DNA from: Gilliamella sp. App4-10
GTDB taxonomy: Bacteria > Pseudomonadota > Gammaproteobacteria > Enterobacterales > Orbaceae
DNA length: 64,000 nt
Reading direction: 5' to 3'
Assembly: GCF_001690495.1 (NCBI RefSeq)
Contig: NZ_LZGS01000018.1
Span: 1 to 64,000 of the forward strand
In this document: positions 22,569-31,797 of the stretch, piece after piece
Layout: each line of letters begins with the position of its first letter
How positions within the stretch are numbered: position 1 is the stretch's first letter
Made by a program: the position numbers and the translations under genes
Notes under the pieces: generated by a model
The model's database searches: none
Told to the model about the DNA's origin: nothing
Seen by the model: only the letters and a program-made list of their open reading frames with translations

Positions 22569-23217
22569 ATGAATATACATCACAAAACTAACGCCGTATC
22601 ACAAACAAGCGATATGGCGCTTATATCATAAAGAAAAATAACCGTCACTGATTTGTCTAAACATATTATGATCAATCGTTCGACCATTTATAACGTGCTA
22701 AAAAAGCCCTATTGAGGTTATTCGTCCCTTTAACCCGTAAGAACTAACGTTATGAAACCATCATTTATGACATTAAACATCTGGTTAAAGTTCAAAAGTC
22801 CATTGAAAATAAATTAAGATACCAAGCTAAACGTGATAAAAAACCTATTTGGGTGACATTTGACCTCTTTTATTTAGAACATTTCATTTATAACACCGAA
22901 AGACCCCATGAGGCATTCAATAATATGCCATTTATTAAATATAAAACACTAAAAACAGACAGCGTAATTTTCTACATGAATTGTGTCGGTCAAAAATTTA
23001 ATAAGCCTGCCTGCCCACAAACAAATGGCAAGACCGAAAACCTGATACGGAAATTTATGAAGAAGTAGCATAATCAACAATAGTTAGCAATTCAAAAGAT
23101 AGAAAATAAAAGGTTAAGCGATTTATTACCTTTTATAATACGTTTAAACCATATAATGCGATTTCAAGTAAAACGCTTTATGCACTGTTAGCGAATTATT
23201 TTAATCATGAAGTGTAA
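22569..23217 (+). pseudogene. decayed IS481-type transposase remnant
   Basis: Fragments of an IS481-family transposase can be read in shifting frames. N-terminal helix-turn-helix part: MNIHHKTNAVSQTSDMALIS, then ITVTDLSKHIMINRSTIYNV. Linker: RYETIIYDIKHLVKVQKSIE. C-terminal part: KFNKPACPQTNGKTENLI, the PQTNGK-E motif of the DDE core, and RFITFYNTFKPYNAISSKTL to the TAA at 23217. Several stops and frameshifts break the frame, and the middle of the catalytic core is gone, replaced by about 100 bases of IS3 3' end (22886-22985). No active transposase can be made. Confidence 0.8.
22886..22985 (+). repeat. IS3-family 3' end scrap inside the IS481 remnant
   Basis: This stretch is closely similar, without large gaps, to about 29726-29825 of the intact IS3-family element in this window. 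It encodes the same NTERPHEA-NN-M tail and runs on into the terminal TTTTCTAC of the right inverted repeat. It is a relic of an earlier copy of the same or a closely related element. The similarity begins abruptly at ATTTATAACACCGAAAGACC. Confidence 0.85.
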
Positions 23218-24781: not shown

Positions 24782-27700
24782 TTAACCTAACTGCTTACGA
24801 GCATTACGGAACATTCTCATCCATGGGCTATCTTCGCCCCAATTATCTGGATGCCATGAATTAGCAACTGTTCTAAATACCCTTTCTGGATGTGGCATCA
24901 TAATAGTTGCTCGCCCATCTTCAGATGTCACCGCAGTAATACCGTTTGGTGAACCATTGGGATTGGCAGGGTACTGCTGTGTTACTTTGCCATAATGGTC
25001 AATATAACATGCCGCTATTAATGCTGATGCTTCTAAATTAGTTAGATGCGTATCATCACAAACCTCAACACGCCCTTCGCCGTGTGAAACCGCAATTGGC
25101 ATATGCGAACCCGCCATATCAGTAAATAGCAACGAAGGGCTTGATTGAATTTGCACTAAGCTAAAGCGCGCTTCAAAACGTTCTGACAAATTACGCACAA
25201 AACGAGGCCACAAATCAGCCCCTGGAATCAGATCCTTAAGGTTTGACATCATCTGACAACCGTTACAAACCCCTAACGATAACGTATCTTGGCGATGAAA
25301 AAATCGTTCAAATTCATCACGCACCTTTTCGTTAAATAAAATCGATTTAGCCCAACCTTCTCCCGCGCCTAACACATCACCATAAGAAAAGCCACCGCAA
25401 GCAACCAGTGTACTAAATTGGTTAAGTGTAATGCGACCTGAGAGTAAATCAGTCATATGCACATCGATGGCCTCAAAACCAGCTCGATCGAATGCGGCGG
25501 CCATCTCGACATGCGAGTTAACACCTTGTTCACGCAAAATGGCCACTTTAGGTTTTGCACCTTTCGCAATATAAGGTGCAGCAATATCCGTTTGTGGGTC
25601 GAAAGTTAAGTGCACATTTAAGCCAGGATCATCTTTATTTTGTTTCGCTTGGTGTTCTTGATCAGCACACTCAGGATTGTCACGTAAACGTTGCATCTGC
25701 CAAGTCGTTTCGGCCCACCATGTTCTTAACATTGAGCGCGACTCACTATAAACCACAGCAGATTTGTTACGCACAATAAATTGTTGTCCTGCTTTAGCAC
25801 TACCCAAAGCATGAACCGCATGGGATAAGCCAAACTGCTTAAAGTAAGCCCTCACCTCGTCTAAACAACTATTGGCCACTTGAATAACAGCGCCAAGCTC
25901 CTCATTAAATAGCGAAGCAATCACATCTTGGCCTAATTGAGAAATATCAACATCAACACCACAATGCCCAGCAAAAGCCATCTCGGCTAATGTCACAAAC
26001 AGCCCCCCATCGGAACGATCATGATAAGCCAGCAACACATTTTGACTGACTAAAGCTTGAATGGCTTGATAAAAAGCAAGCAGCTCTTTAGGATCATGAA
26101 CATCCGCTGTTTGTTGGCCTAAATGACGATACACTTGCGCAAGTGCGGTTGCCCCTAATGCTTGATGACCTTTCGATAAATCAACCAACAATAACGTATT
26201 ATCTTGATCGGTACGCAATTGTGGTGTTACGGTTTTACGCACATCTTCAACGCGCGCAAATGCCGAAATCACCAATGATAACGGCGATATCACTGCTTTT
26301 TGTTCACCATCTTGTTGCCATGTGGTTTTCATCGACATCGAATCTTTACCAACCGGAATTGCAAGTCCCAATGCTGGGCATAGATCTTCACCTATTGCTT
26401 TAACGGCCTGATAAAGCCCAGCATCTTCGCCCGGATGGTCAGCAGCGGCCATCCAGTTAGCTGAAAGCTTAATGCGTTTGATATCGCCAATATTCGTTGC
26501 GGCAATATTGGTAATCGCCTCACCAACGGCAAGCCTTGCCGAGGCGGCAAAGTTAAGCAAAGCAACGGGTGCACGCTCACCGATTGACATAGCTTCTCCG
26601 TAATAGCTATCTAAGCTTGCAGTCGTAACCGCACAATCAGCAACTGGCACTTGCCATGGGCCAACCATTTGATCTCGCACCACCATCCCCGTCACAGAGC
26701 GATCACCAATGGTAATTAAAAAGGTCTTTTCGGCAACCGTTGGTAAGTGTAAAACCCGTTTGACCGCATCATATAAATTAATATCAGCAGTTGAAAAATT
26801 ATCACCATGCGCCTGATGTGTTTTTACATCACGTTGCATTTTAGGCGTTTTACCAAGCAGTACATCCAGTGGCAAGTCTATCGGGTTATTATTAAAATGC
26901 TCATCATGCAAAAACAGCGCTTTATTTGCTGTTGCCTCACCAATAACGGCATAAGGCGCTCGTTCACGCTGACAAAGCTCATCAAACAATGCCAATTTAT
27001 TGGAATGGATGGCAAGAACATAACGCTCTTGCGATTCATTACACCAGATTTCTAACGGGGACATACCCGGCTCATCGCTGAGTATTTTTCGGAGCTCAAA
27101 TTGACCGCCACAGCCACCATCACTAACCAGCTCAGGCATCGCATTAGATAACCCACCAGCACCCACATCATGAATAAACAAAATAGGGTTATCTTCACCT
27201 AGTTGCCAGCAACGATCGATAACTTCTTGACAACGGCGCTCCATTTCAGGGTTATCACGCTGAACAGAAGCAAAATCCAGATCTGCATCGGATTGACCTG
27301 ATGTCATAGATGAAGCAGCGCCACCGCCTAAACCAATATTCATTGCTGGACCACCTAACACAATGAGCTTAGCGCCAGCAGGAAACTCATCTTTTTGGAT
27401 ATGTTCACGACATATATTACCCATACCACCCGCTAACATAATCGGTTTATGATAACCTCTCACTTCTTCGCCATTATGGCTATTTACTCGCTCTTCATAA
27501 GTGCGAAAATAACCCAATAAAGCCGGACGACCAAATTCATTATTAAACGCTGCTCCCCCTAAAGGCCCCTCCATCATAATATCAAACGCACTGACAATAC
27601 GATCAGGCTTACCAAAATCTTGCTCCCAAGGTTGTTCAAAATTAGGGATCCGCAAGTTAGAAACCGAAAAACCCACTAAACCAGCTTTAGGTTTAGCCCC

Positions 27701-28600
27701 GCGCCCTGTTGCACCCTCATCACGAATCTCACCCCCACTCCCCGTTGCTGCACCCGGCCAAGGTGATATGGCAGTTGGATGATTATGCGTTTCAACTTTC
27801 ATTAAAATATCCGCATATTCTTGATGATAGCCGTAGGTTTTATTCTCATTATCCGCAAAAAAGCGCCCAACTTTCGACCCATCCATCACCGCTGCATTAT
27901 CTTTATAAGCGGACGAAACATAATCAGGGGTGTGTTCAAAAGTATTTTTGATCATCTTAAACAGTGATTTAGGCTGTTTTTTACCATCAATAATCCAATC
28001 AGCGTTAAAAATCTTATGGCGACAATGCTCAGAGTTAGCTTGTGCAAACATATAAAGTTCAATATCAGTCGGATTTCGTTTTAATTTTTCAAAATTTTCA
28101 ACTAAATAATCCATTTCATCAGGCGCTAATGCCAAACCTAATTTAAGATTGGCCCGTTCCAAAGCCTTACGACCTTGCCCCAATAAATCAATTATGGTTA
28201 TTGGCACTGGTAGGTCAACTTTAAACAACTTTTCAACTTTGTCAAAATCAGTTAGCACGGTCTCCATCATGCGATCATGAATCAACGCTTCAAAAGCGAC
28301 TTGCTGCACTTGAGTCAAAGGCGAACGAGTTTCGACATAATACGCAATACCGCGTTCAATGCGACGAATCTGTGTTAATCCACAATTATGCGCAATATCG
28401 GTTGCCTTTGATGACCATGGTGAAATCGTTCCAGCCCGAGGCGTGACTAAAAAGAGTAGTTTACTGGATTTATCTATGACATTTATTTGTGCAGTTTTAG
28501 GACCATATTGCAATAATTTATCGAGCGTTAACCGTTGTTCATCCGTCAATTTATCAGTCAAATCAACAAAATGAATATATTGTGCATCCAGGTTAATCAC
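24782..28600 (-). CDS. purL: phosphoribosylformylglycinamidine synthase, 5' end removed by IS3
   Basis: 1272 residues from a GTG at 28600; the frame stays open to the IS junction at 28651. Large-type PurL makes FGAM from FGAR, ATP and glutamine (purine step 4). [39 protein letters not shown] and [16 protein letters not shown] mark the synthase domain; C-terminal glutaminase has [11 protein letters not shown] (Cys) and PHPERVF (His). Upstream of the GTG the frame still encodes [17 protein letters not shown], aligning without gaps to E. coli residues 13-29, then hits TAG exactly at the insertion element. Start codon, first 12 residues, ribosome-binding site and promoter are therefore lost. The GTG has no clear ribosome-binding site. 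It could be an expressed shortened enzyme or a recent pseudogene. Confidence 0.93.
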
Positions 28601-28719
28601 AGGAATCGATTTTTCACGACAAACAGATAGGATTTTACTAATACGATGTAACTATCCCCTAAAATAGTACAGCAAAAAAGTAGAAAATTCTCTATGATAC
28701 AAGTAAAGGGGATTTAATT

Positions 28720-28977
28720 ATGAAAAAAATGACTGAACATCAAATCGTCGCTATTTTAAAAGAAGCTGAAGCAGGTATTCCTGTCAAGGAACTCTGCCGT
28801 AAATATGGCATGGGGAATTCAACTTTCTATAAATGGCGAGATAAATACGGTGGTATGGAAACCTCGGATATCAAACGTTTAAAGGAGCTGGAGGCCGAAA
28901 ACCGTAAACTTAAACAGATGTTTGCTGAGCTCAGTTTAAAATCTCAGCTTCAGGAAGAAATCATAAAAAAGCTTTAG
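28720..28977 (+). CDS. IS3-family transposase OrfA
   Basis: 85 residues. An N-terminal helix-turn-helix (IVAILKEAEAGIPVKELCRK, then YGMGNSTFYKWRDKYGG) is followed by a leucine-zipper-like segment (LKELEAENRKLKQMFAEL). This is the DNA-binding and multimerisation part of IS3-family (IS407/IS51-like) transposases. ATG preceded by AAAGGGG at about ten bases. It ends at a TAG immediately after the slippery AAAAAAG, so translation can pass into orfB. Confidence 0.93.
   Translation: MKKMTEHQIVAILKEAEAGIPVKELCRKYGMGNSTFYKWRDKYGGMETSDIKRLKELEAENRKLKQMFAELSLKSQLQEEIIKKL
28965..28971 (+). promoter_or_regulatory. programmed -1 frameshift site (A6G)
   Basis: AAAAAAG is read in orfA as A-AAA-AAG just before CTT TAG. 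Slipping back one base gives AAA-AAA-GCT-TTA-GTG and continues into orfB. A6G is the standard slippery sequence used by IS3-family elements to make the OrfAB transposase. Confidence 0.8.
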
Positions 28978-29801
28978 TGCCAACTGGGGCACGTAAAACG
29001 TGGGCACAGCAACTACAACAAAATCATTTGGTTACTATTGCTATGAGTTGTGCCATTGTTGGCTTAAGTCGTTGTGCTTACTATTATCAACCTAAGTTAC
29101 AGGATGATTCGGTGATTGTTTCGGTATTGAATGCTATCACAGACCGGCATTTACGCTGGGGCTTTCCTAAATGCTTTAATCGTATCAGAAAGCTCGGCTA
29201 TAAATGGAATCATAAACGGGTATATCGGGTGTATTGTGAATTAAAGCTTAATCTCAGGGTAAAGCGTAAAAAACGTATTCCTCCACGAAGCCCAGAAAGG
29301 CTATTGGTTCCTAATAAACAAGGTGAATGTTGGTCAATGGATTTTATGAGTGACAGTAGCTGTAATCAACGTCGCTTTAGGACATTCAATGTCATTGATG
29401 ACTTTAATCGTGAGGCGTTAGGTATTGATATTGCAGTAAGCTTACCGGCAGTGAGAGTTACCCGTTACTTAGATAAACTGGCTGAATATCATGGCTATCC
29501 ATTAAAAATACGCGTCGATAATGGACCAGAATTTACAGGAAAAACCTTTATAAACTGGGCTAAATCACATGATATAGCCATTGATTATATAGAGCCCGGT
29601 AGCCCATATCAAAACGGGTACATTGAACGATTTAATCGCACCTATCGTACTGAAGTACTCGATTTATATCTTTTTAACAACTTAGCGCAAGCAAGGAGAA
29701 TAACCGAAGAATGGTTAACGATTTATAACACCGAAAGACCGCATGAGGCATTAAATAACATGACACCGCTCGAATATAAAACACTAAAACAAACAGCATG
29801 A
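28977..29801 (+). CDS. IS3-family transposase OrfB (DDE integrase core)
   Basis: 274 residues in the -1 frame relative to orfA, overlapping its stop by one base (GTG at 28977). The DDE residues are visible: Asp in CWSMDFMSD, Asp in IRVDNGPEF, Glu in NGYIERFNR, with the usual spacing and the following K/R. An HTH_21-like part near the N-terminus (DRHLRWGFPKCFNRIRKLGY) is typical of OrfB. The functional product is probably the OrfAB fusion spanning 28720-29801. No stop or frameshift within, so it may be mobile. Confidence 0.93.
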   Translation: MPTGARKTWAQQLQQNHLVTIAMSCAIVGLSRCAYYYQPKLQDDSVIVSVLNAITDRHLRWGFPKCFNRIRKLGYKWNHKRVYRVYCELKLNLRVKRKKRIPPRSPERLLVPNKQGECWSMDFMSDSSCNQRRFRTFNVIDDFNREALGIDIAVSLPAVRVTRYLDKLAEYHGYPLKIRVDNGPEFTGKTFINWAKSHDIAIDYIEPGSPYQNGYIERFNRTYRTEVLDLYLFNNLAQARRITEEWLTIYNTERPHEALNNMTPLEYKTLKQTA

Positions 29802-29833
29802 TTTTCTACTTGAATCTTGTACTAAGTTTGGGG

Positions 29834-31797
29834 TATTTACAGCAACAAAAATGCCTTTTGATATCAAAGATATTCCTCAAACGATTAATTCTGTTAACCT
29901 AGAGCAACAAAAAATTTACGGGCAAAACGATCTCAATGTGATAATCAATAAATTGCCAAGCGTTGATACAACTTATGATATGAGAGATGAGGGTATAAAA
30001 ATCCGTGGTTTTTCAGCAAGTTCTGGTGATATTTATCGTGATGGTGTTCGTGCAAGTGGACAGGTTAGGCAAAGTACCGCAAACATAGAACGGATTGAAG
30101 TGTTAAAAGGCCCGGCATCTGTGCTTTATGGACGTGGGTCGGGTGGTGGCATCATTAATATGATTAGTAAACAAGCTAATTTTGATTCGCCTTCGATTTT
30201 AAGCTTACGTAGCGGTTCATGGGATAAGTATGGCGGTATGGTGGATATCAATCACGTTTTACATGATAAACTTGCGATGCGAATGACTGTTGATCATCAA
30301 TCAAACAGAAGCTTTCGTAAAGGCATTAAGCAAAGGGATACAATGGTCTCACCAAGTATACTTTATGATAATTTAGATGGATTTAATTGGTTAGTTCAAT
30401 ATACTCATGATAATTTGTGGCGTAAGCCTGATAGGACACCGGCTTATTATGATTTACCTAAAGGCGTATCGATTAAAACGGCCTATGCTCATTCTAATGA
30501 TTATGTGAAAGATAATTATCGTTCATTACGTTCTGTCATGGGATTTGAATTCAACCATGACTGGTCTATTAAATTAACCAATCAATACCGTCAAGCGTCT
30601 CAAAATTTTGATCACATTTATGCAGGTAATTATTGTCATTTAAATGGCAAACTGAATAATGGTAAAGATTGTCATCATCAAGGTAAATTGCAATTTCGCC
30701 GAGCTTGGCAAGAAACTGCTAATAAGACATATAGTAACACTGCTGATTTAATGGGTAAATTTAATACAGCAAGTATTGTTCATGATATGCTTATTGGTAT
30801 TGAATATAACATTGAAAAGCGCCAACCAAGATTAGCCTTAACCAACGTTTATCCAGAGGTGGTTGATCCGTTTCATCCGCATTGGCATTCCAAAAAGCCT
30901 CATTATAGTAAATTGAATACTAAAACTAATCATAAAGCCACATCGAAAGGATTTTATTGGCAAGACTTAATTAGTTTTACAGCACAATGGAAATTATTAG
31001 CAGGATTACGTTACGATAATTATAATTTTGCATCAAATGACAAATTAAAACATCAAAACCGTTCATATGATGGGCACTCGTTAAGTCCTCGATTTGGTTT
31101 AATTTGGCAACCTGTGGAATCGCAGAGTTTTTATGCTTCTTATAGTAAAAATTTTGCACCTTATGGAGGTCGAGGTCTTATTACAATTTCGACCAACTCA
31201 AAAACAGTTTATGATGATAAACCCCAATATTCGCGTCAATATGAAGTGGGAATTAAAAGCGATTGGCTAGCTGATAAACTTTCCTCTCAAATCGCCCTTT
31301 ATGATCTCGAACTATATAATGTCCGTTACTAGCCGGATGCCGTTAATGATCCTTATAATTGGCAGGTAAAAGGGAGCGATCGTAGCCAAGGCATTGAGCT
31401 AAGCGCTATTGGTCAGCTGGCATCAAAATGGTACATTAATAGCGGTATTGGTTATCAACAAGCCAAAGTCCATAAAGATAAAAAAACACCAGCCAATTAG
31501 AACAAATATTTGCCTAACACGGCTAAGCATAGTGGTTATTTAAGCGTTCGTTATTTACCTTACGATAATTGGTTTATTGAAGTGGAACTTAATTATAAAG
31601 GATCGATGTATAACGATGATAAGAACGAATTTAAACGCCCTGGTTATACCGTATGGAATTCTGCGGTTGGTTATCAATCTCGCTACTTTGATGTAACTTT
31701 AGCATTCACTAATTTACTGGGTAAAGAGTATTGGCGTTCAAGTAGTATGCCGGGTACACCTAGAGCCTTTTTGTTGACCGCTAGTTATAGACTGTAA
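29834..31797 (+). pseudogene. TonB-dependent siderophore receptor, 5'-truncated and interrupted
   Basis: The frame opens at the IS3 boundary as FTATKMPFDIKDIPQTIN, the start of a plug domain, so the signal peptide and TonB box are missing. The plug has IKIRGFSASSGDIYRDGVRA and VEVLKGPASVLYGRG-like sequence (IEVLKGPASVLYGRGSGGG), typical of ferric-siderophore receptors. The barrel continues to the C-terminal ending RAFLLTASYRL with a terminal aromatic strand. Two in-frame TAG codons occur, at 31330-31332 and 31498-31500, with no frameshift. Without a signal peptide it cannot reach the outer membrane. Substrate cannot be assigned beyond a siderophore. Confidence 0.9.

Follow-up and report, generated by a model that had tools for sequence, protein, structure and literature searches.

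The window, as we call the 64,000-nucleotide stretch analysed here, covers bases 1-64000 of contig C18, which is 183,954 bases long and belongs to a draft genome of 53 contigs totalling 2,434,386 bases. It raises the question of how two different genes, both lacking their 5′ ends, came to lie back to back on either side of one insertion sequence (IS). The arrangement given in the original prediction, an intact IS3 element between a headless purL on the left and a headless receptor gene on the right, was confirmed (Table 1).

Table 1 Features at the purL/receptor junction of the window.
Feature	Position	Strand	Basis or remark
purL (phosphoribosylformylglycinamidine synthase) without codons 1-13	24782..28646	-	Open frame from IS end to stop
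Left flank ACGA, 4-bp target duplicate	28643..28646	.	Partner beside purL start on contig C39; flank reading of copies
IS3-family element, ends TGTAAC...TTTACA	28647..29841	+	1,195 bp; ends from aligned copies
OrfA of IS, helix-turn-helix, 85 aa	28720..28977	+	Frame list, domain match
OrfB of IS, integrase-core transposase, 274 aa	28977..29801	+	Frame list, model match
Right flank GCAA	29842..29845	.	No partner among IS left flanks read
TonB-dependent siderophore receptor gene without first 54 codons, two in-frame stops near C-terminus	29842..31797	+	Decayed

The ends of the element were set by aligning the window copy with six further copies from the same genome. OrfB lies in the -1 frame relative to OrfA, with which it overlaps at 28977, and an A6G run within OrfA (28965-28971) is the likely frameshift site. 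OrfB passed the NCBIfam IS3 model NF033516 with 211.7 bits (cut-off 160), OrfA alone scoring 51.2 bits, under that cut-off. The terminal inverted repeats have 33-nt arms that are 76% complementary, with TG...CA ends. Judged by its transposase model, overlapping frames and inverted repeats, the element is an ordinary member of the IS3 family. Incomplete forms were also seen. Positions 22886-22981 of the window hold an 84% identical fragment derived from the right portion of this IS, between two open frames that we take to be aroB and aroG. Copies at C35:527708-528822 and C18:121976-122684 have the left end (about 200-265 bases) inverted directly against the remainder, as though part of the element had flipped, and at C44:72638-73102 a short remnant, its left end fused to its right end and the middle gone, adjoins an inverted right-end piece.

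The truncation of purL at the IS, originally placed at codon 12/13, stands with a slightly shifted position: the match to the NCBIfam PurL model NF003672 reaches the IS end and starts there at model position 14, so that codons 1-13 are missing and the cut falls at 13/14. The frame upstream of the GTG at 28600 is open to a TAG, as had been described, but this codon lies a few bases within the IS and not exactly at its end; no ATG, GTG or TTG occurs between the two. The lost start, MKILAGSSALSAFR, was found where the original prediction had advised looking, beside another IS copy: it lies at the end of contig C39, directly adjoining an IS right end, with the flank ACGA, the same four bases that border the window copy on its left. 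These flanks show that one ordinary transposition with a 4-bp target duplication interrupted purL at codons 13/14. It was thus the insertion itself, not the rearrangement, that removed the purL start, and because that start is kept beside a matching ACGA, DNA is unlikely to have been deleted on the purL side. A search of the same genome gave one purL match and no second purL.

In all 34 congeners the purL frame was open for at least 1,310 codons with no inner stops, against 1,289 codons here. Of 38 loci, 23 showed the site without interruption by a strict motif, the remaining 15 giving no match to this motif, the only one read, and as far as seen the insertion is confined to this genome. The five best PurL matches among named genomes, a collection that may lack records of the genome studied here, were all from Gilliamella (74-80% identity), and we regard the genome as that of a Gilliamella relative. 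The literature matches listed for purL together with Gilliamella were surveys of bee gut bacteria. Long decay of purL was considered and not seen, dN/dS between this genome and congener G017 (0.086) being close to that between G017 and G034 (0.080). Near the purL start, C39 also carries a CRISPR-like array of eight repeats, the last degenerate, at about 16937-17395 of L074 (C39:30000-48612), ending about 75 bases upstream of the start codon; with up to four substitutions allowed, the repeat was absent from 29 congener purL loci (L010-L038), from five further purL-side stretches of relatives and from the window.

The receptor gene is headless at the right end of the IS, as originally proposed, yet it is not cut inside its Plug domain: the Pfam Plug match begins at profile position 2 of 107, so that the domain is almost complete and the truncation falls at its margin, immediately ahead of codon 55 in the G017 homologue. 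The portion lost comprises the signal peptide and the stretch preceding Plug, and two in-frame stops in the C-terminal part mark the gene as decayed. Its best model, TIGR01783, gave 185.3 bits, under the cut-off of 223.5, and we describe the gene as resembling TonB-dependent siderophore receptors. Over the first 493 codons of the open frame, dN/dS relative to G017 was 0.069; the low values of both genes suggest that the two losses are recent, or that purL remains constrained. A close homologue was whole in 16 of the 34 congeners, whereas among the matches listed at least five had remnants (G007, G009, G025, G030 and G033) and 13 had no close homologue; the gene is thus commonly lost among these bacteria of one genus.

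The companion search, for the receptor's signal-peptide segment beside other IS copies, was unsuccessful. A 1,540-base query from G017, spanning the receptor start and the DNA upstream of it, did not recover that start from the assembly: only the portion from window base 29839 onward matched the receptor, and none of the other 28 matches, all weak, covered the start. We infer that a second identical IS copy sits at the receptor gene, its first 54 codons gone or unassembled. In close relatives the stretch between an acetolactate-synthase small-subunit-like gene and the receptor varies (L090 from G017, L093 from G034). Beyond a diverged IS upstream of the receptor, G034 has a gene 95% like one on C51; C51 was dropped as a candidate for the receptor's former neighbour, a copy on C30 being 94% alike and the link not unique. 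On C10 after 48572, the genome studied here has an acetolactate-synthase small-subunit-like gene and then large genes, presumably a secretion or effector island.

With ACGA on its left and GCAA on its right, the window copy carries no target duplication. Five full-length copies have their two flanks on a single contig; duplications of 4 bp were found in two of them (CGAA on C17 and ATAT at C35:272694) and were absent from the window copy, C35:191278 and C35:277923. Eight contig ends break within this IS (C1, C12, C28, C35, C39, C40 and both ends of C51). The IS portion on C39 is identical to the window copy throughout its 1,102 bases, the left-end portions on C35 and C51 are identical over 805 bases, and the right-end portions on C1 and C12 over 377 and 341 bases, respectively, so that no variant in these stretches assigns left flanks to right flanks. 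Over the part seen, the indistinguishable ends comprise four left flanks (C18 ACGA, C35 ATAA, C51 start CTCT and C28 AGAA) and four right flanks (C18 GCAA, C39 ACGA, C1 ATAA and C12 TTAA); C28 was included through a 100% match over 805 bases, the ungapped comparison breaking from base 33, presumably owing to a one-base length difference. Two duplicates pair across contigs, namely ACGA (C18/C39) and ATAA (C35 end/C1 end). Because the window links ACGA to GCAA, the order purL tail/IS/receptor tail is a cross-connection of two IS copies. The original view that a single insertion cannot yield this arrangement was right, as was its naming of both recombination between IS copies and a misjoin at a repeated IS. 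Split target duplicates of this kind show that an insertion was simple even when its flanks have since been rearranged, in the cell or in the assembly.

We consider it about an even chance, or slightly better, that the assembler collapsed the repeat and cross-joined two copies there, the actual chromosome running purL start/IS/purL tail at this site. The IS3-family element transposed into purL at codons 13/14, duplicating ACGA; another identical copy would lie at the receptor gene; and the window would fuse what lies left of the purL copy to what lies right of the receptor copy. The resulting biology would be a purL broken by the IS and, at another place, a decayed receptor gene beside an IS. 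The purL start on C39 with its ACGA and identical IS portion favors such a misjoin, as do the assembly breaks inside this IS at other contig ends, the identical end stretches (C35/C51 and C1/C12) by which flank pairing is not dictated, and the second split pair with its duplicate ATAA. On the other side, the assembler traversed the window copy and, coming from C39, extended 1,102 bases into the element, suggesting that linking evidence existed, and a missing duplicate is common among full-length copies. Somewhat less probable, though a serious contender, is a real inversion, in which homologous recombination between two identical, inverted IS copies at purL and at the receptor flipped the intervening stretch. 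Identical copies are present, the flanks are swapped and the contig runs through the element, all of which suits an inversion. It also predicts a partner junction, purL start/IS/former left neighbor of the receptor, which was not seen as a single contig, C39 ending inside the IS; of the flanks, ACGA is split between C18 and C39 and a partner for GCAA was not found among the IS left flanks read.

Strand geometry bears on both. The IS copy points against purL and with the receptor, so the two copies would be inverted if the genes share a strand; exchange between them should invert the intervening DNA only in that case, and would otherwise split the chromosome in two. With pyrG, the receptor's neighbor in the window, as proxy, purL lay on the opposite strand in six of the nine congeners that have both on one contig (G001, G002, G006, G007, G011 and G026), which favors the misjoin, and on the same strand in the other three (G004, G012 and G029), which permits inversion. 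Six congeners carry purL on one contig together with the receptor itself; the strand was shared in G006, G026 and G029, where the two are about 45 kb apart, with about 41-43 kb between the genes in G026 and G029, and opposite in G001, G002 and G012; in none of these six did the receptor adjoin pyrG. Adding these receptor-based counts left the relative standing of misjoin and inversion unchanged. In G017, G018 and G034, purL and the receptor are on different contigs, pyrG and eno coming after the receptor as they do in the window, and the gene order of the window was found neither in these nor in G026 and G029 (0/5). The layouts vary so widely that they do not fix the layout of this genome.

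GC skew was -0.115 to the left of the IS and +0.045 to its right (to 64 kb), with the sign switching at the IS, as a misjoin would have it; the right side is mixed and slightly negative between 36 and 52 kb, and C39, read in the purL direction, has almost no skew (0.011, and -0.019 across the final 17.5 kb), which weakens the argument. In five relatives the skew was positive in 12 of 12 pieces read in the purL or receptor direction, so that the window joins two leading strands in a head-to-head arrangement. Mismatched flanks and a skew change are, however, predicted by inversion and misjoin alike and separate neither from the other.

A longer real history, with the purL insertion followed by an IS-adjacent deletion that removed the receptor start and by further moves, seems improbable to us. 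The missing receptor start, the lack of a partner for GCAA among the IS left flanks read, and receptor-upstream DNA that differs between G017, G034 and G018, or is unshared with the own contigs compared, would all suit it, but the assembly may simply have omitted the receptor start, if it sits on a short piece flanked by repeats. A deletion beside one IS copy had also been put forward. Between purL and the receptor, beside a single copy, it would by itself fit the missing target duplication; we regard it as very improbable, since the start of purL is preserved at another IS end, next to the matching duplicate. On the receptor side, where the start was not found, a deletion or an unassembled scrap may account for the loss. 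On balance we lean slightly towards the misjoin over the inversion. From either of the two, the junction is an ordinary event in a Gilliamella-like genome, and its gene order is unusable as evidence until confirmed by reads.

Under inversion and misjoin alike, purL is without its start codon and native upstream DNA. The first standard start in the truncated gene is the GTG at residue 29, and no promoter-like site directed outward from the IS left end was found in 28560-28860 (shuffled mean 1.4). The other pathway genes searched, purF and purH, are whole; if purL is truly interrupted, the strain may nevertheless depend on external purines, a requirement that is a guess and not a result. It is conceivable, though we give it very little weight, that a standing inversion, reversible through the identical IS copies, exchanges the DNA beyond the element, upstream of the purL tail, with translation of the tail still beginning internally (at the GTG of residue 29 or at a rare start codon) and purine synthesis tuned, not lost.

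Compared with known IS3 elements, the window element showed no unusual feature, sharing with IS3 and IS407 the two overlapping frames, an A6G run before the -1 frame, an integrase-core transposase and TG...CA ends. Duplications of 4 bp are associated with the IS407 subgroup of IS3 in the available text of PMC10045372. Those found here have the same length (ACGA, ATAA, CGAA and ATAT), the likeness lying in the purL site and the two single-contig copies, and the element perhaps belongs to that subgroup, an assignment based on these duplications. Chromosome rearrangements at repeated IS copies are described for Neisseria gonorrhoeae in the accessible portion of PMC3454330. There, complete genomes were compared, while here a single draft leaves room for a misjoin; the two cases are alike in having flanks swapped between copies and the breakpoint at the IS. 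Assembly cross-joins occur at collapsed IS repeats, and the junction resembles these in the eight contig ends inside the IS, the identical copies and the split target duplicates, differing from the usual case in that the contig passes through the element and does not stop there.
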